A stretch of DNA of 64,000 nucleotides from Flammeovirgaceae bacterium 311 (GTDB lineage Bacteria; Bacteroidota; Bacteroidia; Cytophagales; Cyclobacteriaceae): assembly GCA_000597885.1 (NCBI GenBank), contig CP004371.1, positions 5,906,001 to 5,970,000 of the forward strand, read 5' to 3'. The position numbers and the translations under genes were made by a program. Under the pieces are notes generated by a model. That model was not told the origin of the DNA and did not search any database. It was given only the letters and a program-made list of their open reading frames with translations. The number at the start of each line of letters is the position of its first letter. Positions within the stretch are counted from its first letter, which is position 1. Of the stretch, positions 22,553 to 45,257 are shown piece by piece.

Positions 22553-22570
22553 AGAGACATCAACAAATAG

Positions 22571-22607
22571 AAAAGGCGCCCATTGATGAAATTGGCGCCT
22601 TTTCTGT
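22571..22607 (+). terminator. Terminator after uxuA
   Basis: 10-bp perfect stem AAAAGGCGCC / GGCGCCTTTT with a 13-nt loop, followed by TTTTCTG. It lies 19 nt after the uxuA stop and separates it from the convergent xylanase gene. Confidence 0.85.
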
Positions 22608-22738
22608 TATTCAGGAAGTTAATACTAATGCTTAGCGTATGCTTCCTTTGTATGATTCAGGCATTCAACTGTTTCTATTGGAATGGGTATTACTCCTAAT
22701 CCAAAAAGAACCAGCCTGATATATTTATCAGTTTATTA

Positions 22739-24001: not shown

Positions 24002-24035
24002 GTAGTAGACTTAATCGTGATGAAGTAGATGTTTT

Positions 24036-24068
24036 AAAGGCGCTATGCTATTCCGCAGTAGCGCCTTT
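24036..24068 (-). terminator. Intercistronic hairpin between the two xylanase genes
   Basis: 10-bp perfect inverted repeat AAAGGCGCTA / TAGCGCCTTT followed on the minus strand by a short TTTAAAA run. It lies between the lipoprotein xylanase and the T9SS xylanase and may act as a partial terminator or an mRNA-stabilising hairpin that sets their ratio. Confidence 0.55.
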
Positions 24069-24094
24069 AGTTGGTTATATGCAGGAGAAAGGCA

Positions 24095-25255: not shown

Positions 25256-25374
25256 TTAAGGTGTGGGGGGTTCGGTTGTTGGTTTTGGTTTATTGGCAGA
25301 TGGTAAATGCTAAGGAGAATTGTGTTCTTCCATCTGCCATCTACTTTATATTCTGAAAACAGCATTTTACAGAT

Positions 25375-26121
25375 CTAGAAACCAATGGCATTACCACCGT
25401 CTACTTTCAGGATGGTGCCGGTTACATAGCTGGAGGCATCGGTAGAGAGGTAATATACAGCTTCAGCTACATCGGCTGGTTTGCCCAGCTTGCCCATAGG
25501 CGTTCTGGAGAGTACCTTATTTTTACGCTCCGGGTCGCTATCAAGCGCCTTGGCCGACATATCGGTGGCAATAAAGCCGGGTGCCACGCAGTTTACCCGT
25601 ATGCCTTCAGGGGAAAGATCTACTGCCATGGCACGTGTCATCCCTTCAATGGCTGATTTGGAAGCAGTATAAGCGATTACTTTAGGAATTCCATATTGTG
25701 ATGCCATTGAGCTGATGTTTACAATGGCCCCCTGCTTTTGGGCCAGCATTACCCTTGCTACCTCGCGGCTTAAGCTGAATACAGCAGTGAGATTGGTAAG
25801 AATGATGCGTTCAAAATCCTGATCGCTCACCTCTGTGAAAGGTTTCTTTTGATTGATTCCAGCATTGTTCACCAAAATATCAATCTTTCCATACCGATCG
25901 CGCAGGCGTTCAACAAATGCAGGCATTTGCTCCAGCTCAGTTAGATCGAAGCTTTCATAGGAGCAGTTTTCTCCAAACTGTTCCTGGGCTGCCTGCAGTT
26001 TTTGCTCATTGCGTCCTACTATAATGGTGCGAATGTTGTTGTTTACAAACTTCTCCGCGATGGCATATCCCAAACCAGAGGCACCTCCGGTTACTATGGC
26101 TACTTTTTGATCAGAATTCAA
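25375..26121 (-). CDS. SDR oxidoreductase, probable fructuronate/mannonate step
   Basis: 248 residues. Seen: TGGASGLG, NNAGIN and catalytic YTASKSA, with the C-terminal signature DGGNAIGF. The only start that keeps the Gly-rich nucleotide motif is a TTG at 26121; no in-frame ATG lies upstream before a stop. Known: in E. coli UxuB (not an SDR) reduces D-fructuronate to D-mannonate, but in many Bacteroidota SDR proteins sit beside uxuA-type genes and are thought to replace it. Inferred: NAD(P)H-dependent fructuronate reductase feeding UxuA. Other sugar-acid substrates are possible. It is 26 bp from GH67. Confidence 0.75.
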   Translation of the reverse strand: MNSDQKVAIVTGGASGLGYAIAEKFVNNNIRTIIVGRNEQKLQAAQEQFGENCSYESFDLTELEQMPAFVERLRDRYGKIDILVNNAGINQKKPFTEVSDQDFERIILTNLTAVFSLSREVARVMLAQKQGAIVNISSMASQYGIPKVIAYTASKSAIEGMTRAMAVDLSPEGIRVNCVAPGFIATDMSAKALDSDPERKNKVLSRTPMGKLGKPADVAEAVYYLSTDASSYVTGTILKVDGGNAIGF

Positions 26122-26147
26122 GATATTATGCTTTAGATTGTCAATTT

Positions 26148-28391: not shown

Positions 28392-29444
28392 TCAGGAGGC
28401 CGAAAGCAGCCGTTCCGGTTTTTTCGCACCTTTCAGGGATGACGCTCTGATGATCAGCTCTGCCCTAAGGGTGATGGTGTTTGTGGATACAATATCAGAC
28501 ACCTGGTCCAGGCAATTGATCAGGTTTCTAACGGCCACCTCACCCATTTCGTAGCCGGGATAATGGATGGTGGTAAGGTTTGGCTCAATGACCCGGGATA
28601 TGGGATCGTTGTTAAAACCAATAACGGCAATATCTTTTGGTATGGAAATGCCTGCCTGCTTCAGGGTTTTGATGCAGCTAACCGCACAGGTATCGTTGGC
28701 TACAAAAATACCATCCGGCATGGGATCCATTTTCATGATTTTCTTCGCTGCTTCAACGCCGGCTTCTTCGGTAAGGCTGCCCGTCATGACAGAGGCTTCT
28801 TTGAAAGTCAGGCTGCTGTCCATTAGGGCGTATTTAAATCCTTTCAACCTGTCGGCATAGACATTTCGCTTAAGGCTGCCGGTAATGTGCACAATGTCGG
28901 TACAGCCCTGTTCAATCAGGTGGGTGGTAGCTTTGTGGGCCGCCTGCATATTATCGATTACGATACCAATGCATTTTTTATGCTCGGCAGTACGGTCAAA
29001 GAACAGTACCGGTATGCCTTTGTCAATAAAGGGTGTAAAATGATCAATGTTGTCAGTATCGTAGGCCAGAGAAACCAGCAGTCCATCTACACGGCTGTTG
29101 AACATGGCTTTGGCATTGGAGATCTCCTTCTGCATGGTTTCAAGCGACTGGCTTATGATCAGGTTATAGCCCGCTTCATTGGCTATCTTTTCCATGCCCG
29201 CAATCACCGAAGACATAAAAGGGCTGTTTAGCCGTGGTACAATAACGCCAATGGTGTTGGTGCGCTGTGTGCGTAGGTTACTGGCAAACATATTGAAGCG
29301 GTAACCCATCCGGGTGGCTGCCTCAAAGACCTTCTTCTTGGTATTTTTATTTACGGCAGGATGATCGTTCAGTGCCCTGCTGACGGTTGCAGGCGATAGG
29401 CCAATCCCTTTCGCTATATCATAAATGGTTATTTCTTTATCCAT
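28392..29444 (-). CDS. LacI family transcriptional regulator
   Basis: 350 residues. N-terminal helix-turn-helix and hinge (TIYDIAKGIGLSPATVSRAL, then NDHPAVNKNTKKKV), followed by a periplasmic-binding-protein-like sensor (TIGVIVPRLNSPFMSSVIAG; later VIGFNNDPISRVIEPNLTTI). It is the first gene of the minus-strand arm and faces the SusCD remnants and transketolase arm. Sites of the form TGCAAnCGnTTGCA lie 27 bp and ~265 bp upstream of its start, and the same pattern lies before xylB, suggesting that it controls both (inference). The inducer is probably a xylose- or glucuronate-derived compound. Confidence 0.93.
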   Translation of the reverse strand: MDKEITIYDIAKGIGLSPATVSRALNDHPAVNKNTKKKVFEAATRMGYRFNMFASNLRTQRTNTIGVIVPRLNSPFMSSVIAGMEKIANEAGYNLIISQSLETMQKEISNAKAMFNSRVDGLLVSLAYDTDNIDHFTPFIDKGIPVLFFDRTAEHKKCIGIVIDNMQAAHKATTHLIEQGCTDIVHITGSLKRNVYADRLKGFKYALMDSSLTFKEASVMTGSLTEEAGVEAAKKIMKMDPMPDGIFVANDTCAVSCIKTLKQAGISIPKDIAVIGFNNDPISRVIEPNLTTIHYPGYEMGEVAVRNLINCLDQVSDIVSTNTITLRAELIIRASSLKGAKKPERLLSAS

Positions 29445-29978: not shown

Positions 29979-29992
29979 AACAAACGTTTGCA
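29979..29992 (+). promoter_or_regulatory. LacI-type operator O3
   Basis: AACAAACGTTTGCA with the perfect core CAAACGTTTG (29981-29990). It ends directly before the ATG (29994) of the putative susC remnant, in a position similar to the operator in front of xylB. Confidence 0.6.
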
Positions 29993-30729: not shown

Positions 30730-30811
30730 TTAAAATAGTTTAGATCTTTTGTGAGAAAGTAGTGGAAAGCTTTCTGCTGAAGGATTAAATTGAAGACTAA
30801 AACTATTTTAA
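30730..30811 (+). promoter_or_regulatory. 12-mer inverted pair (xylose-regulon motif candidate) before transketolase
   Basis: TTAAAATAGTTT (30730-30741) and its exact reverse complement AAACTATTTTAA (30800-30811), 70 bp apart start to start, ending 30 bp before the transketolase ATG. The same pair with the same 70-bp spacing occurs upstream of xylB (45082 and 45152). Confidence 0.6.
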
Positions 30812-30841
30812 GCATTTTCTAACAAGAAAATAACTTTTAGC

Positions 30842-31681
30842 ATGAGTATAGAAGAACTAGAAGGCATCAGCAATCAGGTGCGCAGAGACATTGTGCGGAT
30901 GGTGCACAGCTGCCAGTCAGGGCATCCGGGAGGATCATTGGGCTGCACCGATTTTTTAGTAGCTCTTTATTTCCGGGAGCTTACCCACAATCCAGACTTC
31001 CAGATGGATGGAGTAGGCGAGGATTTATTTTTCCTCTCCAACGGCCACATCTCCCCTGTGTGGTACAGTGTTTTAGCCCGCTCGGGCTACTTTGACAAAG
31101 CAGAGCTGGCAAGCTTCCGCAAGATAGATTCCCGGCTGCAGGGCCACCCCACCACCCATGAGGGGCTGCCCGGCATCCGCATTGCCTCCGGTTCGCTGGG
31201 GCAGGGCTTATCGGCTGCCATTGGAGCTGCCTTAACCAAGAAGCTCAACGGCGACAGGAGCCTTGTTTTTTCCCTTCATGGAGACGGAGAGCTGCAGGAG
31301 GGCCAGATCTGGGAAGCAGCCATGTTTGCCCCCCACAACAAGGTAGACAACCTCATCACCACCATTGATGTAAACGGCCAGCAGATAGACGGACCTGTAG
31401 ACCAGGTGCTGGGCCTGGGCAACTTAAGAGCCAAGTGGGAAGCCTTTGGCTGGGAGGTGCTGGAGATGAACGGCAACGACATGCAGGATGTGGTACGGGT
31501 AGTGGATTTAGCCAAGAGCAAAGCCCACAAGGCAAAGCCCATCCTGATCCTGATGCAGACCAACATGGGCCATGGCGTAGACTTTATGACCGGCTCCCAC
31601 AAGTGGCATGGCGTAGCCCCTAATGATGAGCAGCTCCAAAAGGCGCTGGATCAGCTGGAAGAAACACTGGGCGATTACTAA
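30842..31681 (+). CDS. Transketolase, N-terminal subunit
   Basis: 279 residues. Carries the thiamine diphosphate pyrophosphate-binding half: GHPGGSLGCTDFLVALYF near residue 27 and GDGELQEGQIWEAAMFA ... DVNGQQIDG at about 145-180. Known: the N-terminal half of transketolase, here encoded separately as in many bacteria and archaea; it moves two-carbon units between xylulose 5-phosphate and aldose phosphates. It is paired with the C-terminal subunit 33 bp downstream. Its place in the xylan locus fits the flow of xylulose 5-phosphate from XylB. Upstream motif pair suggests co-regulation with xylBA. Confidence 0.96.
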   Translation: MSIEELEGISNQVRRDIVRMVHSCQSGHPGGSLGCTDFLVALYFRELTHNPDFQMDGVGEDLFFLSNGHISPVWYSVLARSGYFDKAELASFRKIDSRLQGHPTTHEGLPGIRIASGSLGQGLSAAIGAALTKKLNGDRSLVFSLHGDGELQEGQIWEAAMFAPHNKVDNLITTIDVNGQQIDGPVDQVLGLGNLRAKWEAFGWEVLEMNGNDMQDVVRVVDLAKSKAHKAKPILILMQTNMGHGVDFMTGSHKWHGVAPNDEQLQKALDQLEETLGDY

Positions 31682-31714
31682 CAGCTGTTTACCAACTACT
31701 CAATACTTAACACA

Positions 31715-32692
31715 ATGAAGAAATACACCTATACCGATAAGAAAGACACCCGTTCCGGCTTTGGCGCAGGCCTGTTGGAAGTGGGCAGAAAGAATGAAAA
31801 TGTAGTAGCCCTGTGTGCAGACCTGGTAGGCTCGCTGAAGATGGCAGACTTCATCAAAGAATTCCCCCACCGCTTTTTCCAGATCGGCATCGCCGAGGCC
31901 AACATGATGGGCATAGCAGCAGGCATGACCATCGGGGGGAAGATTCCCTACACAGGCACCTTTGCCAACTTCTCCACCGGCAGGGTCTATGACCAGATCC
32001 GCCAGAGCATTGCCTACTCGGACAAGAACGTGAAGATCTGCGCCTCCCATGCAGGCTTAACGCTGGGAGAGGATGGCGCCACTCACCAGATCCTGGAGGA
32101 CATCGGGCTGATGAAGATGCTGCCAGGCATGACAGTGATCAACCCCTGCGACTACAACCAGACCAAAGCAGCCACCATTGCCATTGCAGAGCATCATGGG
32201 CCGGTGTACCTAAGGTTTGGCAGGCCGGTGATGCCTATCTTCACAGCGCCCGATCAGGAGTTTAAGATCGGCAAAGCCTGGCTGGTCAATGAAGGAGCAG
32301 ATGTGAGCATCTTTGCCACCGGCCACCTGGTGTGGGAGGCGATTAAGGCAGGCGAGCAGTTAGCTGAAATGGGCATTGATGCAGAGATCATCAACATCCA
32401 CACCATCAAGCCCCTGGATGTGGAGGCGGTGCTAAAGTCAGTGCGCAAGACAGGCTGTGTGGTAACGGCCGAGGAGCACAACCGACTGGGAGGACTGGGC
32501 GACAGCATTGCCCAGGTACTGGTGGGGCAGCATCCGGTGCCCCAGGAGTATGTGGCGGTAAACGACAGCTTTGGCGAGAGCGGCACCCCCGAGCAGCTCA
32601 TGAAAAAGTATGGCCTCGATGATGAGCACATCATCAAAGCCGTGAAAAATGTGTTGGAACGAAAAAAGAAATCTAAGCAACAGGCAGTTTAA
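31715..32692 (+). CDS. Transketolase, C-terminal subunit
   Basis: 325 residues with the pyrimidine-binding domain (DTRSGFGAGLLEVGRKN, FQIGIAEANMMGIAAGM) and the C-terminal transketolase domain (ADVSIFATGHLVWEAIKAGE, GCVVTAEEHNRLGGLGD). The catalytic Glu that contacts the cofactor is in the IAEANM segment. Forms the active enzyme together with the N-terminal subunit. The stop is followed by ~270 bp before the GH115 gene, a gap with no terminator I recognise, so read-through into GH115 is possible. Confidence 0.96.
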   Translation: MKKYTYTDKKDTRSGFGAGLLEVGRKNENVVALCADLVGSLKMADFIKEFPHRFFQIGIAEANMMGIAAGMTIGGKIPYTGTFANFSTGRVYDQIRQSIAYSDKNVKICASHAGLTLGEDGATHQILEDIGLMKMLPGMTVINPCDYNQTKAATIAIAEHHGPVYLRFGRPVMPIFTAPDQEFKIGKAWLVNEGADVSIFATGHLVWEAIKAGEQLAEMGIDAEIINIHTIKPLDVEAVLKSVRKTGCVVTAEEHNRLGGLGDSIAQVLVGQHPVPQEYVAVNDSFGESGTPEQLMKKYGLDDEHIIKAVKNVLERKKKSKQQAV

Positions 32693-32962
32693 TCTTATGG
32701 GCATCAGCCTTTGAAAGATAGACTGATTGTTTCATGGCATAGCATAAAGGAGAGTATAAGCTGTTAGAATTTTCAGCTTTCACAGCAGACAAGGCAGCGT
32801 TCGCTGCGGTTTGCATAGCTCCTTCATGATATCCATTACATAAAATGCGTTAACTGACTATTATCTCAACTTAAACGCAGCTGTTTTACAGAAAGCTATC
32901 TTAACATTCTCCGGCTCCTGCTTGCCTGTACAGGAATAAAAGGGTGGCTGGAGAATATAAAG

Positions 32963-35900
32963 ATGGCTTTCTTGAGGCAGCAGCATGTTCAGCGGGAGTA
33001 CTCCCCACTAACTGCCAAAGTACCGGCCTTCTATAAAAGCAATATGGTGAACATACCCCCGAAAAAACCTTATCAGGCGCTCCTGTTTCAAGCCAGCCTT
33101 ATTACTTCACTGATCAAAAGCACCAGATCAGCAACTGCTATTTGCTTTGTTTTTTTGCTGCTGATGGCGCAATCGGTTTCGGCCGTGGAAGATACTTCTT
33201 ATGTCTCCGGTAAGAAGCAGGCCGGAAGCTTTACACTTGCTGCGGCGGGCAAAACAGCCCCCCTTTACATCAGCCCTGGTGACCATGCCGGGGTAATACG
33301 CGCACTAAAAGATCTGCAGACAGATATAAACAGGGTAACAGGTGTATTGCCACAACTTGTCTCCGACGGCAAGGCTCCCAAAGGAAAGGAAGTAGTGCTG
33401 GTAGGTACCCTGGGCAAAAGCCCCCTGATCGATGGGCTGGTAAAGGATAAAAAACTGGATGTGGGGGAAATTGCAGGCAAATGGGAGACTTTTGTGGTGC
33501 AGGTGGTGGAAAAACCAATGAAAGGGGTAGACAGAGCCCTGGTAATTGCCGGCAGCGATAAGCGCGGCACCATTTTCGGTATCTACGATCTCTCTGCGCA
33601 GATTGGTGTGTCGCCCTGGTACTACTGGGCCGATGTGCCGGTGAAGCAACAGCAGAATCTGTACGTGCTGCAGGGCCGCCACACAGATGGCGAACCAAAG
33701 ATAAAGTACCGTGGGATTTTTATTAACGACGAAGCTCCTGCGCTGGCAGGCTGGGCACAGGAACAGTTTGGTGGCTTCAACCATAAATTTTATGTGCATG
33801 TGTTTGAGCTGATCCTCCGCATGAAAGGAAACTTTCTGTGGCCGGCCATGTGGGGCCGGGCCTTTTATGATGATGATCCTAAAAATCCGGTGCTGGCTGA
33901 CGAGTATGGGGTAGTGATCAGCACCTCACACCATGAGCCTATGATGCGTGCGCACGATGAGTGGCGGCGCTATGGCTCCGGTTCCTGGAACTACAAAAAT
34001 AATCCTGAAAAGCTGCAGGAGTTCTGGCGGGAAGGCATAAAACGCATGGGCACAAACGAAAGTATTGTTACCCTGGGTATGCGTGGCGATGGCGATGAGG
34101 CTATGTCGGAAGGCACGGAAATATCGCTGCTGGAGAAGGTAGTAGATGATCAGCGCAGCATTATTTCCGAGGTAACCGGCAAAAAGGCCGAAGAAACGCC
34201 GCAGGTATGGGCGCTTTACAAAGAGGTGCAGGATTATTACGACAAAGGCATGCGCGTGCCCGATGACGTAACCCTGCTGCTGGCTGACGATAACTGGGGC
34301 AACATCCGCAAATTGCCCAAAGCAGGAGAAAAGCAGCACAGCGGTGGCTACGGCATCTATTATCACTATGACTACGTAGGCGGCCCACGTAACTACAAGT
34401 GGATCAACACCAATCCCATTGCACGGGTGTGGGAGCAGATGCACCTGGCCTATGAGTATGGGGCCGACAGGCTGTGGCTGGTCAATGTGGGCGACATCAA
34501 ACCCATGGAATTCCCTACCGAATTTTTTCTGGACTATGCCTGGAACCCCGAAAAGTGGCCGGCAGAGCGTTTGCAGGAATACACCCGCCTGTGGGCTGCT
34601 GCTCAGTTTGGCGAAGAGCATGCCCCGGCCATTGCAGACTTGCTCACCCAGTATGCCAAATTCAATGGCCGTCGTAAACCTGAACTGCTGTCGGCAGAAA
34701 CCTACAGCCTTAGCAGCTACCGTGAAGCAGAGCGGGTGGTAGAGGAGTACAACGCCCTTGCCGAACGGGCAGAAGAAATTAACAAAGCACTGGACCCTAA
34801 ATACCGGGATGCCTATTACCAACTGGTGCTTTACCCGGTAGCCGCCAGTGCCAACCTAAATGAATTGTGGGTAACAGTAGCGAAGAACCGCATCTACGCG
34901 CAGCAAGGCAGGGTAACGTCCAACGACATGGCTAAAAAGGCCGAAGAGCTTTTCAAGAGAGATAAAGCACTTTCCGAGCATTACCACAAAGGTATCTCTA
35001 ATGGTAAATGGAACCACATGATGTCGCAGACGCACATCAGCTACACCTACTGGCAGCAGCCCGAAAAGGACGAACTGCCAGAAGTAAAGCAGGTAGAACC
35101 TGTAGCCGGTGCCGAAATGGGCGTAATGGTAGAGGGTTCCGACAAATGGTGGCCTGCTGAAAAAGGGGAGGCCGTGTTGCCGGAGCTAACGCCCTTCAGC
35201 GAGCAAAATGTATATATAGAACTTTTCAACCGCGGGCGGCAGCCGTACCCTTACCAGATACAAACTGGAACTCCCTGGTTGATGGTAGATAAGCCACAGG
35301 GCACCATAGAAAAAGAGCAGCGCCTGCTGCTGTATGTTGACTGGCAAAAAGTGCCCGCGGGAGAGCATCGGGTGCCCGTTACCATTACCGGTCCAAACGG
35401 CAGCAAAGTTGAAGTACAGGCCAGGGTGCATAATCCGGCAGGCTTAAGAGCAGATCAGCTGGAGGGTTTTGTGGAAAGCAGGGGTTATGTATCCATGGAG
35501 GCCGAGCACTTCACCCGTTCCGTAGGTGCAGGTCCCATTACCTGGCAGGTGGTTCCCGATCTTGGTAAAACCCTTTCCGGTGTAATGCCGGTTCCGGTTA
35601 CAGCACCCAGCCAGACGCCCGGAGGTAACAGCCCGCGGCTGGAGTACAAAATGTATCTCCTCAACAGCGGTGAGCTAAAGGTGCGGGTGTATGTTTCGCC
35701 CACCCTCAACTTTCACAACAACCAGGGCCTACGTTTTGCCATTTCCATCGACGACGAGGCACCACAGGTCCTGAACCTGCACACCGATCAGTCGGAAGCG
35801 GCCTGGAATCGTGATGTGGCCAACAACATCAAGGAGCTGGTGAGCAGGCATACGGTTGCCACACCAGGCGAGCATGTGCTGAAGTTTTGGATGGTAGATC

Positions 35901-36004
35901 CGGGTGTGGTGCTACAGAAAATTGTAGTGGAAACTAAAGAAATCAACCCCAGCTACCTGGGGCCACCGGAAAGCTTCTACATTCCTGCCAGAGAGGCGGA
36001 ATAG
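32963..36004 (+). CDS. GH115 xylan alpha-1,2-glucuronidase
   Basis: Up to 1013 residues, usual for GH115. The N-terminus is uncertain: ATG 32963 precedes a long basic leader; ATG 33044 (MVNIPPKKPYQ) is an alternative, and the hydrophobic signal segment is at about 57-75 (SATAICFVFLLLMAQSVSA). Seen: family landmarks SHHEPMMRAHDEW and LGMRGDGDEAMSEGTE in the catalytic barrel, followed by YYHYDYVGGPRNYKW, then a C-terminal domain (GYVSMEAEHFTRS). Known: GH115 removes (4-O-methyl)glucuronic acid also from internal xylose of long xylan, unlike GH67. Periplasmic or surface location inferred from the signal segment. Confidence 0.93.
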   Translation: MAFLRQQHVQREYSPLTAKVPAFYKSNMVNIPPKKPYQALLFQASLITSLIKSTRSATAICFVFLLLMAQSVSAVEDTSYVSGKKQAGSFTLAAAGKTAPLYISPGDHAGVIRALKDLQTDINRVTGVLPQLVSDGKAPKGKEVVLVGTLGKSPLIDGLVKDKKLDVGEIAGKWETFVVQVVEKPMKGVDRALVIAGSDKRGTIFGIYDLSAQIGVSPWYYWADVPVKQQQNLYVLQGRHTDGEPKIKYRGIFINDEAPALAGWAQEQFGGFNHKFYVHVFELILRMKGNFLWPAMWGRAFYDDDPKNPVLADEYGVVISTSHHEPMMRAHDEWRRYGSGSWNYKNNPEKLQEFWREGIKRMGTNESIVTLGMRGDGDEAMSEGTEISLLEKVVDDQRSIISEVTGKKAEETPQVWALYKEVQDYYDKGMRVPDDVTLLLADDNWGNIRKLPKAGEKQHSGGYGIYYHYDYVGGPRNYKWINTNPIARVWEQMHLAYEYGADRLWLVNVGDIKPMEFPTEFFLDYAWNPEKWPAERLQEYTRLWAAAQFGEEHAPAIADLLTQYAKFNGRRKPELLSAETYSLSSYREAERVVEEYNALAERAEEINKALDPKYRDAYYQLVLYPVAASANLNELWVTVAKNRIYAQQGRVTSNDMAKKAEELFKRDKALSEHYHKGISNGKWNHMMSQTHISYTYWQQPEKDELPEVKQVEPVAGAEMGVMVEGSDKWWPAEKGEAVLPELTPFSEQNVYIELFNRGRQPYPYQIQTGTPWLMVDKPQGTIEKEQRLLLYVDWQKVPAGEHRVPVTITGPNGSKVEVQARVHNPAGLRADQLEGFVESRGYVSMEAEHFTRSVGAGPITWQVVPDLGKTLSGVMPVPVTAPSQTPGGNSPRLEYKMYLLNSGELKVRVYVSPTLNFHNNQGLRFAISIDDEAPQVLNLHTDQSEAAWNRDVANNIKELVSRHTVATPGEHVLKFWMVDPGVVLQKIVVETKEINPSYLGPPESFYIPAREAE

Positions 36005-36048
36005 AGAAAGCTCAATGTAGAGAATCTAAACAAACTTAGCCAAGCCAA

Positions 36049-37818
36049 ATGACCCATATACATACCATATTCCGGAAAGCCACTGCCTTACTGCTTTGTT
36101 GTCTGATCAGCACAAGCTTGATGGCACAGTCAGGTAATACCTTCATCAATCCGATCCTATCAGGCTTTTATCCTGATCCGAGCATTACCCGGGTGGGAGA
36201 GGATTATTATATGGTACATTCTACCTTTTCCTATTTTCCGGGGGTACCGGTGATGCACAGCAAGGACCTGGTAAACTGGAAGCAGATTGGCAATGTGCTG
36301 GACCGCCCCGAGCAGCTGGACCTGGATGGACTGGGCATCTCCAGGGGCATCTTTGCCCCCACCATTGAACACCACAACGGCACCTTTTATATGGTTACCA
36401 CACTGATTGATGGGGGTGGTAATTTTGTGGTAACGGCAAAGAATCCTGCCGGGCCCTGGTCAGACCCGGTGTGGCTGCGGAATGTGAGTGGTATTGATCC
36501 TTCCCTCTTTTTTGATGAAGATGGAAAGGCCTACATCATCTACAACAGCGAAGCACCGGATAATAAGCCCCTCTATGATGGCCATCGAACCATCCGTATG
36601 ATGGAGTTCGACTGGCAAAATCTGAAGGCGGTGGGTACGCCCATTATTCTGGTAAACGGAGGAGTGGATATTTCCAAAAAACCGGTGTGGATAGAAGGTC
36701 CGCACATTTACAAAAAAGGGGGCTACTACTACCTGATGGCTGCCGAAGGTGGCACCAGTGTGAACCATTCTGAAGTAATCCTGCGGAGCACCACAGTAAC
36801 CGGTAAGTACATTCCTTATCCCGGTAACCCTATTCTCACCCAGCGCCATCTTCCTGCCGATCGTGAATACCCGGTTTCTGCCACCGGCCATGCCGACCTG
36901 GTTCAGACACAGAATGGCGACTGGTGGGCAGTTTTCCTGGCCACCAGGCCTTACGATAAAAACGACAGCTATAACCTGGGTCGTGAAACTTTCCTGGCTC
37001 CTGTTAGCTGGAAAGAGGGCTGGCCTATCATTAATCCCGATTTTGAAGAAGTGCAGTACAGCTATCAGCGGCCTGATCTCCCCGAAACCAAGACAGATTT
37101 TCCGCTGAATGGTAATTTCACCCAAAGGGCAGATTTCGATCAGAAGCAGCTGCCAATGCACTGGACGTTTGTAAGAACTCCGCGCACAAAATGGTACAGT
37201 TTGGAACAGCCGGCCGGCCAGCTAACGCTGGATCTGCGTCCGGAGACGCTTTCCGGGAAACAGAACCCTTCCTATGTAGCCAGGCGGCAGCAGCACTGGA
37301 CAGGCAATGCCACTGCCAAAATGCAGTTCAAGCCTGCTGCGGCCAATGAATTTGCCGGCATTGCTACCTTTCAGGGTGAGCAAAACTATTATGCCCTGGG
37401 TAAATCACTTTCTGCCAATGGTGAGGAGGTAATTCAGTTGTTGCAATCTAACAAAGGAGCTGATGCAGCCAGAGAGGGAACAGCCAGGGATGCTGGCACA
37501 GCTGATGCCGGCACCACCGTGATAGCAGAACAGAAGCTGGCAAAAAGTGAAAGGGGCAAACCGCTTTACCTAAAGGTGGAGTTCGATAAGGGCAACTACA
37601 ATTTTTACTACACTACCAAACAGGGCGACTGGAAACTGCTGAAGTCAGGGGTGGATGGTACTTTCCTGAGCACCCGGGTATCCGGTGGCTTTGTTGGCAC
37701 CACTATGGGGCCATACGCCACCTCACAGGGAAAACAATCTGCCTCTAAAGCCAGCTTCGACTGGTTTGAGTATAGTGGTAATGATGAGGTATACAAAGCC
37801 AAAAACATTGCCAGATAA
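36049..37818 (+). CDS. GH43 beta-xylosidase / arabinofuranosidase
   Basis: 589 residues with signal peptide (ISTSLMAQ). Five-bladed propeller at about 28-330 with catalytic base Asp in FYPDPSITR, pKa-setting Asp in GIDPSLFFDED and acid Glu in VWIEGPHIYKK, then a C-terminal beta-sandwich (about 360-580) as in xylosidase-type GH43 subfamilies. A short Ala/Gly/Thr-rich insertion lies at about 475-492 (AREGTARDAGTADAG). Known activity: release of xylose or arabinose from xylo-oligosaccharides; sequence alone does not separate the two. It is 44 bp after GH115 and followed by a terminator. Confidence 0.93.
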   Translation: MTHIHTIFRKATALLLCCLISTSLMAQSGNTFINPILSGFYPDPSITRVGEDYYMVHSTFSYFPGVPVMHSKDLVNWKQIGNVLDRPEQLDLDGLGISRGIFAPTIEHHNGTFYMVTTLIDGGGNFVVTAKNPAGPWSDPVWLRNVSGIDPSLFFDEDGKAYIIYNSEAPDNKPLYDGHRTIRMMEFDWQNLKAVGTPIILVNGGVDISKKPVWIEGPHIYKKGGYYYLMAAEGGTSVNHSEVILRSTTVTGKYIPYPGNPILTQRHLPADREYPVSATGHADLVQTQNGDWWAVFLATRPYDKNDSYNLGRETFLAPVSWKEGWPIINPDFEEVQYSYQRPDLPETKTDFPLNGNFTQRADFDQKQLPMHWTFVRTPRTKWYSLEQPAGQLTLDLRPETLSGKQNPSYVARRQQHWTGNATAKMQFKPAAANEFAGIATFQGEQNYYALGKSLSANGEEVIQLLQSNKGADAAREGTARDAGTADAGTTVIAEQKLAKSERGKPLYLKVEFDKGNYNFYYTTKQGDWKLLKSGVDGTFLSTRVSGGFVGTTMGPYATSQGKQSASKASFDWFEYSGNDEVYKAKNIAR

Positions 37819-37838
37819 TCTTTGCAGAGCTACAGTTT

Positions 37839-37868
37839 AAAGGCGTCGGAGAAGTCCGGCGCCTTTTT
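37839..37868 (+). terminator. Terminator after GH43
   Basis: 12-bp stem AAAGGCGTCGGA / TCCGGCGCCTTT (one G-T pair) with loop GAAG and a T tract. It separates the transketolase-GH115-GH43 group from GH95. Confidence 0.85.
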
Positions 37869-38038
37869 GCTTTTGCTGGTATTTATGCAAGAGGTTACAT
37901 ATGATACCCCTTTTCGGAATAAAAGAGACCCTGTTGCTATCTTGTGCCTATTAACTTTAAGCCTGAATGTTCCTGGCCGTTTGGGGCCAATCTTAGTTAT
38001 TTTGATAACCATTATTATTCATAAGACTGATTGCTTTG

Positions 38039-40375
38039 ATGAATCGAATAAACCAACACTCCTGCTGCTTTATAATAAGCTTGTTAATTTCAATAGTTTC
38101 CATGGGTCATTTATCCGCACAGCAGCCTATGCAGCCGCCGCGGCCGTTAAGCCTATGGTACAACCAGCCTGCTACAGACTGGAATGAGGCCCTGCCAGTA
38201 GGAAATGGCCGTCTTGGGGCAATGGTTTTTGGTCATGTGGCGACTGAACGCCTGCAGCTGAACGAAGAATCGGTGTGGGTAGGGAAGCCGGCCGATTTTG
38301 TAAACCCAAAAGCAAAGGCAGCGCTGCCCCAGGTGCGCCAGTTACTCTTTGCCGGTAAATATGCCGAAGCGGTAGCGCTGGCACAGGAGGCCATGATGGG
38401 CGATAAGCAGGTCTGGAGCACCTACCAGACCCTGGGTGACCTGGCGCTGGAATTCGACACACTGCACCAGGAAGCAACAGATTACCGCCGTAGCCTGGAT
38501 CTGGAAACAGCCATTGCCAGTGTTTCCTATAGATCAGGCGGAATAAATTTTAAGCGTGAAATATTCTCCAGTGCGCCAGACCAGGCGCTGGTGGTAAGGC
38601 TAACAGCCGATAAAGCAAATGTACTTAGCTTTAAGGCCTCATACAGCAGACCCGGTAACAAAGCAGAAATAAAAGCATTTGGCAATGAGCTCATCATGAG
38701 CGAGCATGTTGGCGATGGGGTAGGGGTAAAGATGGTAGCCCGTTTGCAGGTGCTGCATGAGGGTGGAAGTGTGGCGCAATCAGGCAACAGCCTGCAGATC
38801 TCCGGTGCTAATACGGTTACCCTGCTCATTACCGGTGCTACTGATTACAGGGGAGAAAATCCAGAAACACAATCGGCAAACCGCCTGGCAGCAGCTGCAA
38901 AAAAAGACTATACAAGCCTGAAGCAGGATCACCTGGCTGATTATCAGCAGTTCTTTAAACGTGTTGCACTTGATCTGGGAACCTCTCCTGCTGAATACTT
39001 CCCAACAGATAATCGTTTAGCCGCACTTAAGATGGGGAATACTGACCCGGATCTGGTGGAGCTTTACTACCAGTTTGGGCGCTACCTGCTCATCAGCAGC
39101 TCACGCCCCGGTAGCCTGCCCGCCAACCTGCAGGGTATCTGGGCCGATGGCCTCACTCCCCCCTGGAGTGCCGATTACCACATCAACATCAACATACAGA
39201 TGAACTACTGGCCGGCAGAGGTAACCAACCTTTCGGAAATGCACCTGCCTTTCCTGCAGTTTCTGGATAAGATGCGTCCTGATGCCCGCAAAACTGCCAG
39301 AGATATGTATGGAGTGAAAGGAACTGTGGCGCACTTTACCACCGATCCCTGGTTTTTTACAGAACCCTACGGAGAACCACGCTGGGCCATGTGGCCCATG
39401 GGCATGGCCTGGAGTGCCCAGCACCTCTGGGAGCATTACCTGTTTACAGAAGACCGGCAGTACCTTAGGGAGCTGGGGTATCCTGTTATGAAAGAAGCTG
39501 CTGAATTTGCTGTAAACTGGCTGGTGAAACACCCGGAAACAGGGCAGCTGGTGTCGGGACCTTCTATTTCTCCGGAAAATACTTTCAAGACCAAAGAAGG
39601 CGAAGTCGCCACCATGGTGATGGGCCCAACCATGGATCATATGATCATCAGGGATCTTTTAAGCAACACCATTGCTGCCAGCACCATCCTGAAGCAGGAT
39701 GCCAGCTTCCGCCGGCGGATGGAAAAGGTTTTAACCCAATTGCCTCCTACCAGGATAGGCAGCGATGGCCGCATCATGGAATGGACTGAGGAGTTTGAGG
39801 AGAACGAGCCGGGCCACCGCCATATCTCCCACCTGTTTGCGCTGCACCCCGGCCGGCAAATTAACCGGCAGCAAAACCCTGAGCTGATGGAAGCTGCCCG
39901 TAAAACCATCGATTACCGACTGTCGCATGGCGGCGGGCATACCGGCTGGAGCCGTGCCTGGATCATTAATTTCTTTGCCCGCCTGCAGGATGGTGAGACA
40001 GCCTACGAAAACCTGCAGGAGCTCCTGCGCAAATCTACGCTGACGAACCTCTTCGATACCCACCCGCCTTTCCAGATCGATGGTAACTTTGGGGCTACCG
40101 CCGGTATAACTGAAATGCTTCTGCAAAGTCATGCAGGCGAAGTAGAGGTGTTGCCAGCCCTGCCTGCAGCCTGGCCTAAGGGTAGCATCAGCGGTCTGGT
40201 TGCCCGTGGTGGATTTGAGGTGGATATAGAGTGGGATGAAGGCAGGCTGAAACAGGTAAAGGTGCTGTCGAGGCTAGGCAACCCCCTGCAGCTCCGATAC
40301 CAGGATCAGGTGGTAAACCTAAGCACCCAAAAAGGCCTGGTTTATGTGCTGAACGGAGCACTGGAGGTGGAGTGA
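38039..40375 (+). CDS. GH95 alpha-L-fucosidase / alpha-L-galactosidase
   Basis: 778 residues from ATG 38039; a TTG directly upstream is the frame start but less likely. Signal peptide ends IVSMGHLSAQ. Seen: N-terminal domain with WNEALPVGNGRLGAMVFG and LNEESVWVGKP, (alpha/alpha)6 catalytic part with YHININIQMNYWPAE (the two Asn), SPENTF (acid Glu) and QIDGNFGATAG (Asp). Known: GH95 cleaves alpha-1,2-L-fucose, and some members in Bacteroides xylan loci remove L-galactose from complex xylans. In this xylan locus the second role is plausible (inference). It has its own upstream region after a terminator. Confidence 0.93.
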   Translation: MNRINQHSCCFIISLLISIVSMGHLSAQQPMQPPRPLSLWYNQPATDWNEALPVGNGRLGAMVFGHVATERLQLNEESVWVGKPADFVNPKAKAALPQVRQLLFAGKYAEAVALAQEAMMGDKQVWSTYQTLGDLALEFDTLHQEATDYRRSLDLETAIASVSYRSGGINFKREIFSSAPDQALVVRLTADKANVLSFKASYSRPGNKAEIKAFGNELIMSEHVGDGVGVKMVARLQVLHEGGSVAQSGNSLQISGANTVTLLITGATDYRGENPETQSANRLAAAAKKDYTSLKQDHLADYQQFFKRVALDLGTSPAEYFPTDNRLAALKMGNTDPDLVELYYQFGRYLLISSSRPGSLPANLQGIWADGLTPPWSADYHININIQMNYWPAEVTNLSEMHLPFLQFLDKMRPDARKTARDMYGVKGTVAHFTTDPWFFTEPYGEPRWAMWPMGMAWSAQHLWEHYLFTEDRQYLRELGYPVMKEAAEFAVNWLVKHPETGQLVSGPSISPENTFKTKEGEVATMVMGPTMDHMIIRDLLSNTIAASTILKQDASFRRRMEKVLTQLPPTRIGSDGRIMEWTEEFEENEPGHRHISHLFALHPGRQINRQQNPELMEAARKTIDYRLSHGGGHTGWSRAWIINFFARLQDGETAYENLQELLRKSTLTNLFDTHPPFQIDGNFGATAGITEMLLQSHAGEVEVLPALPAAWPKGSISGLVARGGFEVDIEWDEGRLKQVKVLSRLGNPLQLRYQDQVVNLSTQKGLVYVLNGALEVE

Positions 40376-40383
40376 TTTAAAAG

Positions 40384-40417
40384 AAGAACCCCGCTGCCAA
40401 ATGGAAGCGGGGTTCTT
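40384..40417 (+). terminator. Terminator between GH95 and the transporter gene
   Basis: 12-bp perfect stem AAGAACCCCGCT / AGCGGGGTTCTT. It lies between two convergent genes, so it may serve both strands. Confidence 0.8.
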
Positions 40418-40481
40418 AACCAATCATCAATCATCAAAAAATAGTCTTCGGGACAGCAGCTTCTACGCTACTGCCATATTA

Positions 40482-41927
40482 TCAGGCTTTTGCCTTTATT
40501 GTAGGGTCCAGATTTGGATTTTCGGGGATCAGGTCTGATTTCTTTCTCCACAGATCTTCCATTTCTTCAAGCTTTCTGCCTTTGGTTTCAGGTACGTACT
40601 TCCATACGAAGATAATGGTAACCACGCACATGGCGCCATACAGCCAGAAAGGGAAAGCGCCGTGGAAATTCTCATTCAGGTACGGGTTGCCCAGCATCAT
40701 CGGGAAAGTCTGGCTTACTGCAAAGTTTGCCAGCCACTGTGCAAATACGGCGATTGCCAGGGCTTTTGCACGAATCTGGTTAGGGAATATTTCAGAAAGA
40801 AGTACCCATACAACCGGTCCTAATGACAGTGCAAAAGAAGCAATGTAACCCAGGATGAAGAGCAGGATCCATACACCTGTATTTTGTGTGTAGGCAGCAA
40901 AACCTACGGCACTGATACAGATGCCCATGCCCAGTGAACCAATAATCATCAGCGGCTTGCGTCCCCAGCGGTCTACAGTTGCAATGGCTACCACTGTGAA
41001 GACGAGGTTAACGGCACCCACTACGATAGTTTGCAGCATGGCCGCATCTGTGGTGCCACCGCCTAATTGTTTAAAAATTTCCGGAGCATAATAAAGGATT
41101 ACGTTGATACCCGTGATTTGCTGAAACACACTTAGCATGATACCAATAAACAGCACCCAGCCAAAGCCCTGGCCAATCAGCTTTACTTTAGGCGCCAGCG
41201 AATCGCGGTGGAGGGAAGCAGTGATCTCGGCTACAGCGCGTTTTGCATAGTCGGCATTCATGATTTTGGTAAGCACTTCCACGGCTTTTGCTTCTTTGCC
41301 AGCCAGCACCAGCCAGCGGGGGCTGCGGGGTACTACCAGTACCAGGAAGAAGAACAAGCCTGCTGGAATGGCCTCGCTGCCAAACATCCAGCGCCATCCT
41401 GTATTGAGGTTCCACACTTCATCACCCTGCAGGGCAATGTAATAGTTTACAAAATACACAATCAGCATACCGGTAACGATTGCAAGCTGGTTAAAAGAAA
41501 CCAGCCGGCCGCGCAAATGAGCAGGAGCAATTTCGGCTATGTACATAGGCGAAAGCATAGAGGCAATGCCTACACCGATACCACCCACAATACGATAGAT
41601 GATAAAGGTAGTGAAGCTGTCAGGCATGGCAGAGCCAATAGCTGAAATAAAGAAAAGGACTGCTGCAATCAGCAAGCCAGGCTTACGGCCAAAGCGGTCG
41701 GCAATGAGTCCGGCAACAGCTGCACCAATCATACAACCTACCAGCGCACTGGAACCTGCCCAGCCCATTTCGAGGTCGCTTAGTTGAAAGTAGTCCCGCA
41801 GCGATCCGATAGCACCTGATATTACAGCGGTATCGTAGCCAAACAAAAGGCCCCCCAGCGTAGCCACCAGTGTGATGCCTACAATGAAAGGCATATTTTG
41901 CTTTTCTACATCTGTTTGTTGTTTCAT
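40482..41927 (-). CDS. xylE: MFS sugar:H+ symporter (XylE-like)
   Basis: 481 residues with twelve membrane helices and the sugar-porter signatures: GYDTAVISGA, DRFGRKPGLL after helix 2, PRSPRWLV before the central loop, QQITGINVILYYAPEIF in helix 7, DRWGRKPLMI and PETKGRKLEEME. Known: D-xylose, glucose and related sugars are carried across the inner membrane by this group. Xylose is inferred from the neighbouring xylA and xylB. A hairpin separates it from xylA by 66 bp, possibly lowering its expression relative to the enzymes. Confidence 0.9.
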   Translation of the reverse strand: MKQQTDVEKQNMPFIVGITLVATLGGLLFGYDTAVISGAIGSLRDYFQLSDLEMGWAGSSALVGCMIGAAVAGLIADRFGRKPGLLIAAVLFFISAIGSAMPDSFTTFIIYRIVGGIGVGIASMLSPMYIAEIAPAHLRGRLVSFNQLAIVTGMLIVYFVNYYIALQGDEVWNLNTGWRWMFGSEAIPAGLFFFLVLVVPRSPRWLVLAGKEAKAVEVLTKIMNADYAKRAVAEITASLHRDSLAPKVKLIGQGFGWVLFIGIMLSVFQQITGINVILYYAPEIFKQLGGGTTDAAMLQTIVVGAVNLVFTVVAIATVDRWGRKPLMIIGSLGMGICISAVGFAAYTQNTGVWILLFILGYIASFALSLGPVVWVLLSEIFPNQIRAKALAIAVFAQWLANFAVSQTFPMMLGNPYLNENFHGAFPFWLYGAMCVVTIIFVWKYVPETKGRKLEEMEDLWRKKSDLIPENPNLDPTIKAKA

Positions 41928-41963
41928 ATAGATTATTTACTCTGCAAATAAGTTATAAAGAAG

Positions 41964-41998
41964 AATAAGACCATGACGCCTGCTGTCATGGTCTTATT
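41964..41998 (-). terminator. Hairpin between xylA and the transporter gene
   Basis: 14-bp perfect inverted repeat AATAAGACCATGAC / GTCATGGTCTTATT, followed on the minus strand by TTCTTTATAAC. It starts 10 nt after the xylA stop; terminator or partial attenuator. Confidence 0.65.
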
Positions 41999-42007
41999 GC
42001 TTTGGGA

Positions 42008-43339
42008 CTAGATATAGCGATTAATCAAATTCTCCAGATATTCCTGTCTTCCACTGATGGTTGCAGGCTCACCATTTTCAATGGCATAAGCACGCAGGTC
42101 TTCCAGCGAAAGCTGCCCTTCTTCAAAAGCTTTGCCTTTTCCGCTGTCGAAAGAGGCATAACGCTCCTGGCGTATCTTCTTGTAGTCAGATTTCTGCAGG
42201 ATGGCATCAGCAGTAAGCAGCGCTCTCGCGAAAATATCGGCACCCCCTACGTGGGCGTAGAAGAGGTCTTTAGGATCGGTAGAATTTCTTCTGATCTTGG
42301 CATCGAAGTTAACGCCGCCGCCCTGCAGGCCACCGGCCTCAAGAAATACCAGCATGGCTTCTGTTAGTTCATAGATATCGTTCGGGAACTGGTCGGTGTC
42401 CCAGCCGTTCTGATAGTCACCACGGTTGGCATCGATAGATCCTAACAGTCCCTGATCAGCAGCTACCTGCAGCTCGTGCTGGAAGGTATGGCCGGCAAGA
42501 GTGGCATGGTTTACCTCAATATTCAGCTTGAAATCATCCATCAGGTCGTACTGGCGCAGGAAGCCGGCTACCGTAGCAGCATCGTAATCGTACTGGTGCT
42601 TGGTAGGTTCCATAGGCTTAGGCTCAATAAAGAAGGTGCCTTTAAAGCCCTGCTTGCGAGCATAATCTCTGGCAGTATGAAGGAATCGGGCAAAATGCTC
42701 CTGCTCACGCTTCATGTCAGTGTTCAGCAGGGTCATGTAACCTTCGCGGCCACCCCAGAATACGTAATTTTCTCCGCCCAGTGCAATGGTAGCATCCAGG
42801 GCTGCTTTTACCTGGGCAGCGCCATGGGCCAGCACATGAAAATCAGGGTTGGTAGAAGCACCGTTCATATAGCGGGTGTGCGAAAACAGGTTGGCAGTAC
42901 CCCACAGCAGTTTCACGCCACTTTCGGCCTGCTTTTGTTTGGCATACTCCACCATCGCCTGCAGCCTTCTGTCGTTCTCCTTAATGTCGTTGCCATAATC
43001 CACCACATCCACATCATGGAAGCAGTAGTAAGGCATGTTCATTTTGGTGATAAATTCAAAAGCAGCATCCATTTTATCTTTGGCGCGCTCTATCGGGTCT
43101 TTTTTCTCATTCCAGGGATAGTTGTGCGTGGGTGAACCAAAAGGATCTGCGCCATCACCTACAAATGAATGCCAGTAAGCGATAGCAAAGCGAAAGTGGT
43201 CTTTCATGCTTTTGCCAGCTACCATTTTGTTCTCATCGTACCAGCGGTAGGCCAGCGGGTTATCAGACTCCCGGCCTTCGTATTTGATCTGTCCTACTCC
43301 CTTGAAGTATTCTTTATCTCCTAAAACTACTTTTGACAT
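42008..43339 (-). CDS. xylA: Xylose isomerase
   Basis: 443 residues, class II length. Converts D-xylose to D-xylulose in the cytoplasm with two divalent metals. Seen: catalytic His in [40 protein letters not shown], metal ligands in [33 protein letters not shown] and GSIDANRGD. It lies 35 bp after xylB in the same direction; the operon is xylB-xylA-transporter. LacI-type and 12-mer sites are in front of xylB. Confidence 0.98.
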
Positions 43340-43374
43340 AATATTCGGGGTTGGTTATGTTGTTAGATAATTTT

Positions 43375-44853
43375 CTACATAAGTTGTTTCTGTAACAGGG
43401 CTTTCCACTCCTGGTACACCGGCTCGTAGGCCTCTGTATTTTTTGGCTCCACCAACTGCAGTGGTTTACTGTTGCTGAAAGCCTCCTGTTCAGAATTGAA
43501 AGTTTTTACGCCTATACCTGCGCCCAGGGCCGCACCAACGCTGCCATCGTTCATATAGAGCTCAACCGGCACGTGCGTGGCATTTACAAAAGCCTCCAGG
43601 AAAAGATCGCTCAGGAAGAGGTTGGCCCTGCCGGCACGAATAAGGGTAGGATTCATCCCGTTTTCACGCATAATATCCAGCCCGTAGCGGAAGGCAAAAG
43701 CAATGCCCTCCTGCACGCCCCTGAACATATGGCTCTGGCTGTGCAGGTTCAGGTCTATATTATGAAAATGGGTGCCTACAATTTTGTTGTTGAGCATACG
43801 CTCTGCTCCGTTGCCAAAGGGCAATACACGCAGACCATCACTGCCAATAGGTACCTGTCCGGCCTGTTTGTTCATCTCTGCATAGCTGATTTCGGAGGCA
43901 AACAGGTTTTTGATCCAGCGGTTAAGAATGCCGGTGCCATTGATGCACAGCAGCACACCCACGCGTTTTTCTTCGCCGCTATAATTTACGTGGGCAAAAG
44001 TGTTTACCCGCGATTGCGGATCATAAATTAGCTGATCGCTCACGCCATAGATCACGCCCGAGGTTCCGGCAGTGGCAGCCACTTCGCCAGGCTGCAGTAC
44101 GTTGAGAGAAAGCGCATTATTGGGCTGATCGCCGGATTTATAGGTTACCGGGATGCCTTCCTTCAGGCCTATCTGATCAGCAATCTCTTTTTTCAGCCTG
44201 CCATGATCAGAAAAAACCGGTCTTACTTCCGGGATCAGCGCCCTATCGAAGCCGTAATAGCCCAGTACATCTTCAGATAGTTTATCCGTTTTGAAGTCCC
44301 AGAAAACCCCTTCAGAAAGGGCCGAAACGCTGGTAGTCACTTCTCCGGTTAGCATCATGGCTACAAAGTCGCCGGGAAGCATGGCCTTATCGATGCGGTT
44401 GTAGAGCTCGGGTTCGTTTTGCTTTACCCAGGCCAGCTTGGAGGCGGTGAAGTTGCCGGGAGAGTTCAGGAGGTGAGAGAGGCTTTTATCTTCGCCAATG
44501 CTTTCGAAGGCTTTGTTACCAATTTCAACAGCACGGCTGTCGCACCAGATAATAGAATTGCGCAACACCTGCTGGTCTTTATCAACCACAACCAGCCCGT
44601 GCATCTGGTAGGCGATGCCAATGGCACCAATATCTTTCGGATCGTATTTGCCAGAGGCATTGGCTTTACGAATGGCTGTTTGTACATGCAGCCACCACAT
44701 ATCTGGAGATTGTTCCGCCCAGCCTGGCTTTGGCGAGAGAATATCGGACTCTTTATCGGGATATTGGGCCGATACCAGACTGGTTTGGGTCTGATCGTCA
44801 ACAACCGATACTTTGATGGAAGAGGTACCTAAATCAATTCCTAATAAGAGCAT
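43375..44853 (-). CDS. xylB: Xylulokinase
   Basis: 492 residues of the FGGY carbohydrate kinase fold. Phosphorylates D-xylulose to D-xylulose 5-phosphate. Seen: GIDLGTSSIKVSVVD at residues 5-19, PGWAEQSPDMWW, IGIAYQMHGLVVVD, and ATP-site AGTSGVIYGV and NGAERMLNNK. First gene of the operon. A perfect LacI-like operator core ends 15 bp before the ATG, and four copies of the 12-mer xylose motif lie within the next 400 bp. The product feeds the transketolase encoded 12 kb away in the same locus. Confidence 0.97.
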   Translation of the reverse strand: MLLLGIDLGTSSIKVSVVDDQTQTSLVSAQYPDKESDILSPKPGWAEQSPDMWWLHVQTAIRKANASGKYDPKDIGAIGIAYQMHGLVVVDKDQQVLRNSIIWCDSRAVEIGNKAFESIGEDKSLSHLLNSPGNFTASKLAWVKQNEPELYNRIDKAMLPGDFVAMMLTGEVTTSVSALSEGVFWDFKTDKLSEDVLGYYGFDRALIPEVRPVFSDHGRLKKEIADQIGLKEGIPVTYKSGDQPNNALSLNVLQPGEVAATAGTSGVIYGVSDQLIYDPQSRVNTFAHVNYSGEEKRVGVLLCINGTGILNRWIKNLFASEISYAEMNKQAGQVPIGSDGLRVLPFGNGAERMLNNKIVGTHFHNIDLNLHSQSHMFRGVQEGIAFAFRYGLDIMRENGMNPTLIRAGRANLFLSDLFLEAFVNATHVPVELYMNDGSVGAALGAGIGVKTFNSEQEAFSNSKPLQLVEPKNTEAYEPVYQEWKALLQKQLM

Positions 44854-44866
44854 GAGCGTATGTTAT

Positions 44867-44880
44867 TGCAAACGTTTGCG
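44867..44880 (-). promoter_or_regulatory. LacI-type operator O4 in front of xylB
   Basis: TGCAAACGTTTGCG with perfect 12-bp palindrome GCAAACGTTTGC (44868-44879). A weaker copy of its core, CAAACGTTGC, lies at 44943-44952. It shares the pattern TGCAAnCGnTTGCA with the sites near the LacI gene. Confidence 0.65.
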
Positions 44881-44918
44881 TTTTGGAAATTAAAAAGAGC
44901 CGTTGGTATATACTATAT

Positions 44919-45257
44919 AAACTATTTTAATGATTTAGCTGACAAACGTTGCCTTACTGCCAGGTTTGTTAAATACAAGCGTAAGCAGGTTTGATAGTTG
45001 TTGTCTGTTTGCATCTTTCAGAATCCCAATGTTTTGTCTTTACCAGGGGTTCCAAATAAGCTGATGCAGGAGCGCTGGTGTTTAAAATAGTTTCAGTTTA
45101 CAAGTTAACTCTTCCGTAAGCGGGTATCTACTACTTTTTCACAGAAAATATAAACTATTTTAATGCAATGCACCGGCTCCTATAATGAGGAGACTGTAAT
45201 GATTTCATTCATAAAATACCTGCAGCCTGCATTAAAAAATTACACCAACTATTTTAA
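44919..45257 (-). promoter_or_regulatory. Four-copy 12-mer motif cluster upstream of xylB
   Basis: Copies of AAACTATTTTAA at 44919-44930 and 45152-45163, the reverse form TTAAAATAGTTT at 45082-45093, and a shortened ACTATTTTAA at 45248-45257. The inner inverted pair (45082, 45152) is spaced exactly 70 bp, as before transketolase. The surrounding intergenic region (44881-45489) has no recognisable gene. Confidence 0.6.

Follow-up and report, generated by a model that had tools for sequence, protein, structure and literature searches.

A 12-bp element that occurs as a spaced inverted pair upstream of the transketolase genes (tkt) and of the xylulokinase gene (xylB) of Flammeovirgaceae bacterium 311 very probably consists of operators for an AraC-family regulator of xylose catabolism, which is encoded at positions 20218–21078 of the 64,000-bp stretch of DNA analysed here (the window). 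The motif, its geometry, its conservation and its co-occurrence with the regulator gene are features of the DNA itself, and from these we infer binding. The element is real and well conserved, and a re-placed inverted operator is its unusual feature.

Paired 12-mers in the tkt and xylB promoters

The regulator gene, the target genes and the promoter sites occupy the following window positions:

20218–21078, + strand: AraC-family regulator, 286 aa, candidate binder of the sites
30730–30741, + strand: tkt box 1 (TTAAAATAGTTT), predicted −68 to −57
30754–30765, + strand: tkt box 2 (AGAAAGTAGTGG), predicted −44 to −33
30786–30793, + strand: tkt TAnnTT −7 box (TAAATTGA), 56 bp after the box 1 start
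30800–30811, − strand: inverted copy at tkt, predicted +3 to +14
30842–32692, + strand: two-gene transketolase (tkt), N part 30842–31681 and C part 31715–32692
40482–41927, − strand: xylE-type sugar transporter
42008–43339, − strand: xylA, xylose isomerase
43375–44853, − strand: xylB, xylulokinase (best NCBIfam match XylB, 313 bits, below the cut-off of 380)
44915–44932, − strand: further box 1 copy of 18 bp within the xylB leader, same sequence as 45148–45165, without a box 2 score in its model match
45082–45093, + strand: inverted copy at xylB, predicted +3 to +14
45100–45107, − strand: xylB TAnnTT −7 box (TAACTTGT), 56 bp after the box 1 start
45128–45139, − strand: xylB box 2 (AAAAAGTAGTAG), predicted −44 to −33
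45152–45163, − strand: xylB box 1, predicted −68 to −57
45246–45257, − strand: upstream 12-mer copy at xylB, one mismatch

A preliminary description of this DNA had reported TTAAAATAGTTT and its reverse complement, spaced 70 bp apart, upstream of both tkt and xylB, and the pair proved to be exact at both promoters. Exact copies of TTAAAATAGTTT were found in the window at 30730 (+), 30800 (−), 44919 (−), 45082 (+) and 45152 (−), with none in 100 shuffles. Two further copies had been given for the xylB region; the one at 44919 is exact, but the one placed at 45248 was mislocated, the real sixth site being 45246–45257, with one mismatch. The whole genome (one contig of 6,665,617 bp) contains eight exact 12-mers, five of which lie in the tkt and xylB promoters. 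Two of the three outside the window fall within long reading frames; the third (genome position 2007350; L003, 1501–1512) lies outside such frames and has no partner copy. When up to one mismatch was allowed, the 12-mer showed no enrichment in the genome (111 sites versus 156 for a reversed control), and the exact inverted pair, with 50–66 bases between its arms, was found at tkt and xylB only (control, 0).

Both pairs are also kept in the close relative Cesiribacter sp. SM1. The pair is thus neither scattered at random AT-rich places nor lost in close relatives, the two outcomes that had been named as evidence against it, and the proposal that a shared regulator acts on the xylose genes through paired sites is supported by its uniqueness in the genome and its conservation in SM1.

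The tkt and xylB promoters are homologous over about 97 bp (local score 47; maximum of 300 shuffles, 18) in the same orientation relative to the gene, on the + strand at tkt and the − strand at xylB, indicating that the pair belongs to a longer element common to both promoters. The inverted arms at tkt are 84% complementary over 19 nt. A sequence model with a 46-column core, built from 13 elements, recovered two full elements in the genome, at xylB (45.9 bits) and tkt (37.7 bits); the next-best match (19.3 bits) was set aside because it lies inside a long reading frame, and the additional copies (44919 and 45246) gave partial matches only.

Other features of these loci were also noted. Transketolase is split into two separate genes for its N-terminal and C-terminal halves. 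A perfect LacI-type palindrome, GCAAACGTTTGC, was found at 44868–44879, 15 bp upstream of the xylB start; Cesiribacter sp. SM1 has it too, and a one-mismatch copy lies at 29980–29991 of the window, near the LacI-family gene at 28392–29444; near-matches to GCAAACGTTTGC as a set were not above chance.

An AraC-family gene that tracks the motif

The regulator gene had been described as not obviously in the window, but an AraC-family gene whose occurrence across genomes follows that of the motif lies there, at 20218–21078, adjoining uxuA and 9.8 kb from tkt. Its product is an orthologue (67% identical, E 9e-134) of the AraC-family protein encoded divergently from xylB in relatives. A C-terminal double HTH (PF12833 HTH_18, E 4.6e-20; PF00165 HTH_AraC, E 4.7e-11) and an N-terminal, cupin-like AraC_binding domain (PF02311, E 7.8e-06, above its cut-off) place the protein in the AraC family, and a Pfam search of its 286 residues revealed no LacI/GalR-like ligand domain. 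The structure model, of moderate quality (mean pLDDT 78, pTM 0.56), has predicted helices at residues 207–218 and 257–268 and matched AraC-family DNA-binding domains; fold matches made domain by domain included the RhaR and AraC regulatory domains, with low whole-chain TM-scores (0.25–0.38). Sequence models of RhaS and AraC matched the protein below their cut-offs. No 12-mer site was found in the upstream region of the regulator gene itself (best, 8/12). The stretch between this gene and tkt (21359–28316) contains uxuA, two GH10 xylanase genes, an SDR gene and a GH67 gene, and is probably a glucuronoxylan-use cluster.

Conservation was assessed in the best 80 xylB orthologues among 426 relatives, with 900 bp read upstream of each. 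The exact 12-mer was present upstream of xylB in 11 of the 80, namely in Cesiribacter sp. SM1, Nafulsella, Cesiribacteraceae YIM B00369 and eight Niastella/Longitalea loci. An AraC-family gene is divergent from xylB in Nafulsella, YIM B00369, Niastella/Longitalea and many Chitinophagaceae. The regulator is adjacent in 12 of the 80 xylB loci, and the exact 12-mer was found in 10 of these 12 versus 1 of the other 68; that one is SM1, whose regulator (97% identical) is not beside xylB. In the 50 of these 80 genomes that were searched, the regulator was detected in all 11 with the motif; of the 39 without it, 3 have it at an identity of at least 55%, or 4 if a 43% match is counted (the Fisher tests of co-occurrence treat genomes as independent, ignoring relatedness). 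The three motif-free genomes that hold it at this identity are two Pinibacter genomes with a variant site and a Marivirga MAG in which a partial regulator lies at a contig end, with no element in the locus read.

A similar association was observed among 294 Chitinophagaceae genomes, in which the model matched at E ≤ 0.01 in 29 and the regulator was found in 37. All 15 genomes with a match at E ≤ 5e-4 were among the 37 regulator holders, and when the four genomes used to train the model were left out, a strong element was present in 11 of 33 holders versus none of the 257 others. The regulator lies in the locus in all 15 strong cases, and xylB in 14. Among the 14 weaker matches, 12 (E 0.002–0.01) were in genomes without the regulator. 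A strong element was found in only 15 of the 37 regulator-bearing genomes, with degenerate sites visible in several others. In a 390-genome sample of the window's own order, the element was detected in this genome only, as was a close regulator orthologue, with 41–43% identical relatives in five genomes. One match from the order sample and one from YIM B00369 were set aside because they lie inside long reading frames, and a one-mismatch match in another locus (L092) was set aside as isolated.

The protein and its site also vary together at one position. Three distinct Pinibacter sequences and one further genus (L202) carry Arg at residue 217, where the first recognition helix ends, in place of Ser or Cys; in these cases box 1 reads ATTG, not ATAG. 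This covariation is supportive only, since it involves at most two lineages. The protein alignment leaves out two sequences (L200 and L203), and the listing of residue 217 against box 1 contains duplicate rows.

Promoter geometry and the proposed switch

In Flavobacterium psychrophilum, a TAnnTTTG box covers −12 to −5, according to the account of this promoter element in PMC9723704. If this position applies here, box 1 would span −68 to −57, box 2 −44 to −33 and the inverted copy +3 to +14; the −7 boxes of the Cesiribacter lineage read TAnnTTG, not TAnnTTTG. The distance from the box 1 start to TAnnTT is 56 bp in both window promoters, in both SM1 promoters and in YIM B00369. The wider geometry was measured in 29 distinct regulator–xylB/xylE intergenic regions, which remained when seven of 36 distinct regulator-upstream regions were dropped because their locus has no xyl gene; identical starts were counted once, and six Niastella/Longitalea/Pinibacter loci are from the same genomes as family-sample ones. 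TAnnTT lies exactly 56 bp after the box 1 start in 28 of the 29 regions, and the other offsets average 0.22. Box 2 has an invariant core, AAAGTnG, at a fixed spacing in the 13 aligned elements. Fixed-distance sites that reach the −35/−33 region, as in an AraC-type activator, are thus seen for box 1 in 28 of the 29 regions and for box 2 in the 13 aligned elements; a repeat of box 1 within box 2, in direct orientation at 21 bp, which is also an AraC expectation, scored no better at this offset than at 22 or 24. By eye, a recurring CTAACGATT / AAACGATT string was seen about 15–45 bp after the −7 box in several Chitinophagaceae xylB leaders (L145, L182, L187 and others).

The inverted copy is placed differently in different groups. 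The 70-bp spacing is peculiar to the Cesiribacter lineage: in YIM B00369 the second copy, at +70, is degenerate (10/12), and in Nafulsella a partner copy was found at neither the 70-bp nor the 43-bp distance. Upstream of SM1 xylB only the pair is present, and no site with at most one mismatch corresponds to the 44919 or the 45246 copy in the 900 bp read. Chitinophagaceae display a different inverted pair, with a spacing of 43 bp. In 25 of the 29 regions, box 1 is accompanied by an inverted copy (at least 8/12 positions matching) at a distance of 43 bp towards the regulator, compared with 13 of 1800 shuffles that had their best match at 41–43 bp, and in the Chitinophagaceae rows this copy is close to the regulator start codon. 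A −7 box for the regulator was seen at −9 relative to this copy in 9 of the 29 rows, with no general fixed distance.

We propose that box 1, box 2 and TAnnTT, at their fixed spacing, are arranged as would be expected if an AraC-type activator made contact with RNA polymerase from a site reaching −33; activation from boxes 1 and 2 is suggested by their fixed distance to the −7 box. When bound to a sugar, most likely xylose, the regulator would occupy both boxes and activate xylB-xylA-xylE; in this lineage it would also activate transketolase, the induction of which would lead xylulose-5-phosphate into the pentose phosphate pathway. Xylose is the presumed inducer because the targets are xylB, xylA and an xylE-type transporter; uronates are a possible inducer, given the neighbouring uxuA. 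When the inducer is absent, the inverted copy (in the Cesiribacter lineage, at +3 to +14) probably keeps the promoter off, either through a short loop bridging to box 1 or by blocking the start, and such a negative role is suggested by its placement at a start site, whether that of the target or that of the regulator. Looping or cooperative binding between the paired sites is possible. A loop of 70 bp, about 6.7 helical turns, would be short, stiff and not clearly phased, so that a roadblock is an equal alternative. Taken alone, the details of activation and of the extra operator would have an even chance of being correct.

The regulator could instead be a pure repressor, with operators at −68 and +3 that flank the promoter and form a loop or a double block until a sugar releases the AraC-fold protein, a logic similar to that of GalR or LacI. 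The Cesiribacter lineage, in which two strong copies flank the −7 box, is consistent with this arrangement. However, Chitinophagaceae are generally without a strong copy past the xylB start, yet boxes 1 and 2 are at a fixed distance from the −7 box, and the conserved box reaching −33 favours activation. AraC proteins are mostly activators, and we consider a pure repressor unlikely in comparison with an AraC-type activator.

Far less probable is an unlinked Nudix/NrtR-type XylR, the candidate that the preliminary description had put forward from Bacteroides. BT0791 (XylR) is a predicted controller of the xylose genes in Bacteroides, according to PMC4666351 and PMC3878776, and the genome studied here encodes two NrtR-type proteins, 74% identical to each other (genome 1302861–1303568, L115 6862–7569; genome 3402610–3403317, L116 7611–8318). 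One of the genes adjoins araB-araD-araA, and the other lies between a beta-phosphoglucomutase-like gene and a histidine-degradation stretch (hutH, hutU). Both NrtR_WHD genes are unlinked to xyl genes, the 12-mer (with at most one mismatch) is absent from the 16 kb around each, and the gene beside the motif in relatives is of the AraC family, not Nudix; the Nudix candidate is not supported. Least credible is a non-regulatory repeat (whether a small mobile element bounded by inverted repeats, a promoter segment that can invert or an RNA structure): the 12-bp inverted arms around a 58-bp core resemble a miniature element or invertible segment, but there are only two copies in 6.67 Mb (two exact pairs and two full model matches) rather than multiple dispersed ones, the xylB-promoter element is conserved across two orders with a variable spacer and a fixed geometry, the orientation to the gene is the same in the four window and SM1 promoters, and box 1 is upstream of the predicted start, so that both arms would not lie in one transcript.

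Known regulators and the xylose regulon

By analogy, the AraC-family candidate would work most like E. coli AraC at araBAD, with its extra operator placed differently. At araBAD, the araI1–araO2 loop is the off state and araI1–araI2 occupancy is the on state, as outlined in the description of the two states in PMC4760080. Like AraC, the candidate combines a cupin-like N-terminal domain with a double HTH, and its sites recall araI1, araI2 and araO2 in that a strong promoter-distal site and a weaker polymerase-proximal site are accompanied by an extra operator that may support the off state. In contrast to araO2, which is distant and upstream, the extra site is inverted and lies either beyond the start, at a distance of only 70 bp, or towards the regulator, at 43 bp; the candidate also differs from AraC in its low sequence identity, its Bacteroidota −7 box and its xylose and transketolase targets. 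RhaR and RhaS, which are also AraC-family proteins, resemble the candidate in that the RhaR regulatory domain is among its structural matches and the RhaS model matches it below the cut-off, but they regulate rhamnose. The RhaR/RhaS operator layout differs from the arrangement of box 1, box 2 and inverted copy.

E. coli XylR consists of an AraC DNA-binding domain and a LacI/GalR-type ligand domain. Activation of xylose genes, the probable function of the candidate, is shared with this protein and with Vibrionaceae XylRA, which in the summary given by PMC12125979 activates xylAB in response to xylose through AT-rich sites; unlike either, the 286-aa candidate has a cupin-type AraC_binding ligand domain rather than a LacI/GalR-type one. 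Bacteroides XylR and AraR (NrtR/Nudix) are likewise pentose catabolism regulators in Bacteroidota, and AraR sites can be paired there, according to PMC4666351. However, their protein fold is unrelated, the AraR motif is a 21-bp semipalindrome, and no NrtR gene is tied to the 12-mer in this genome. Titles and abstract openings in the PMC literature gave no recognised description of an AraC-type xylose regulator in these groups, and transketolase terms had no match in PMC2873477 (Firmicutes xylose regulons).

More tentatively, and with somewhat more doubt than confidence, we suggest that Cytophagales and Chitinophagales have a compact AraC-type on/off switch of their own, in which one asymmetric operator at −68 is combined with a weak site that extends to −33 and with a movable inverted off-operator. 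The off-operator may have shifted between the regulator start (43 bp, Chitinophagaceae) and the target start (+3 to +14, 70 bp, Cesiribacter lineage); in the latter lineage the regulator gene may have moved away from xylB and transketolase may have become an additional target, the circuit being rewired by moving one 12-bp site.

For xylose use in Bacteroidota beyond Bacteroides, in which a Nudix protein has been described as the candidate, the assignment names a candidate regulator and gives an operator and an exact geometry of the promoter. This geometry predicts a start about 12 bp after the TAnnTT box, near 30798 for tkt and near 45095 for xylB, a knockout of the regulator is predicted to abolish xylose induction of xylB and tkt, and the two placements of the same extra operator provide a natural comparison. 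If the assignment is true, transketolase would have been drawn into the xylose regulon.
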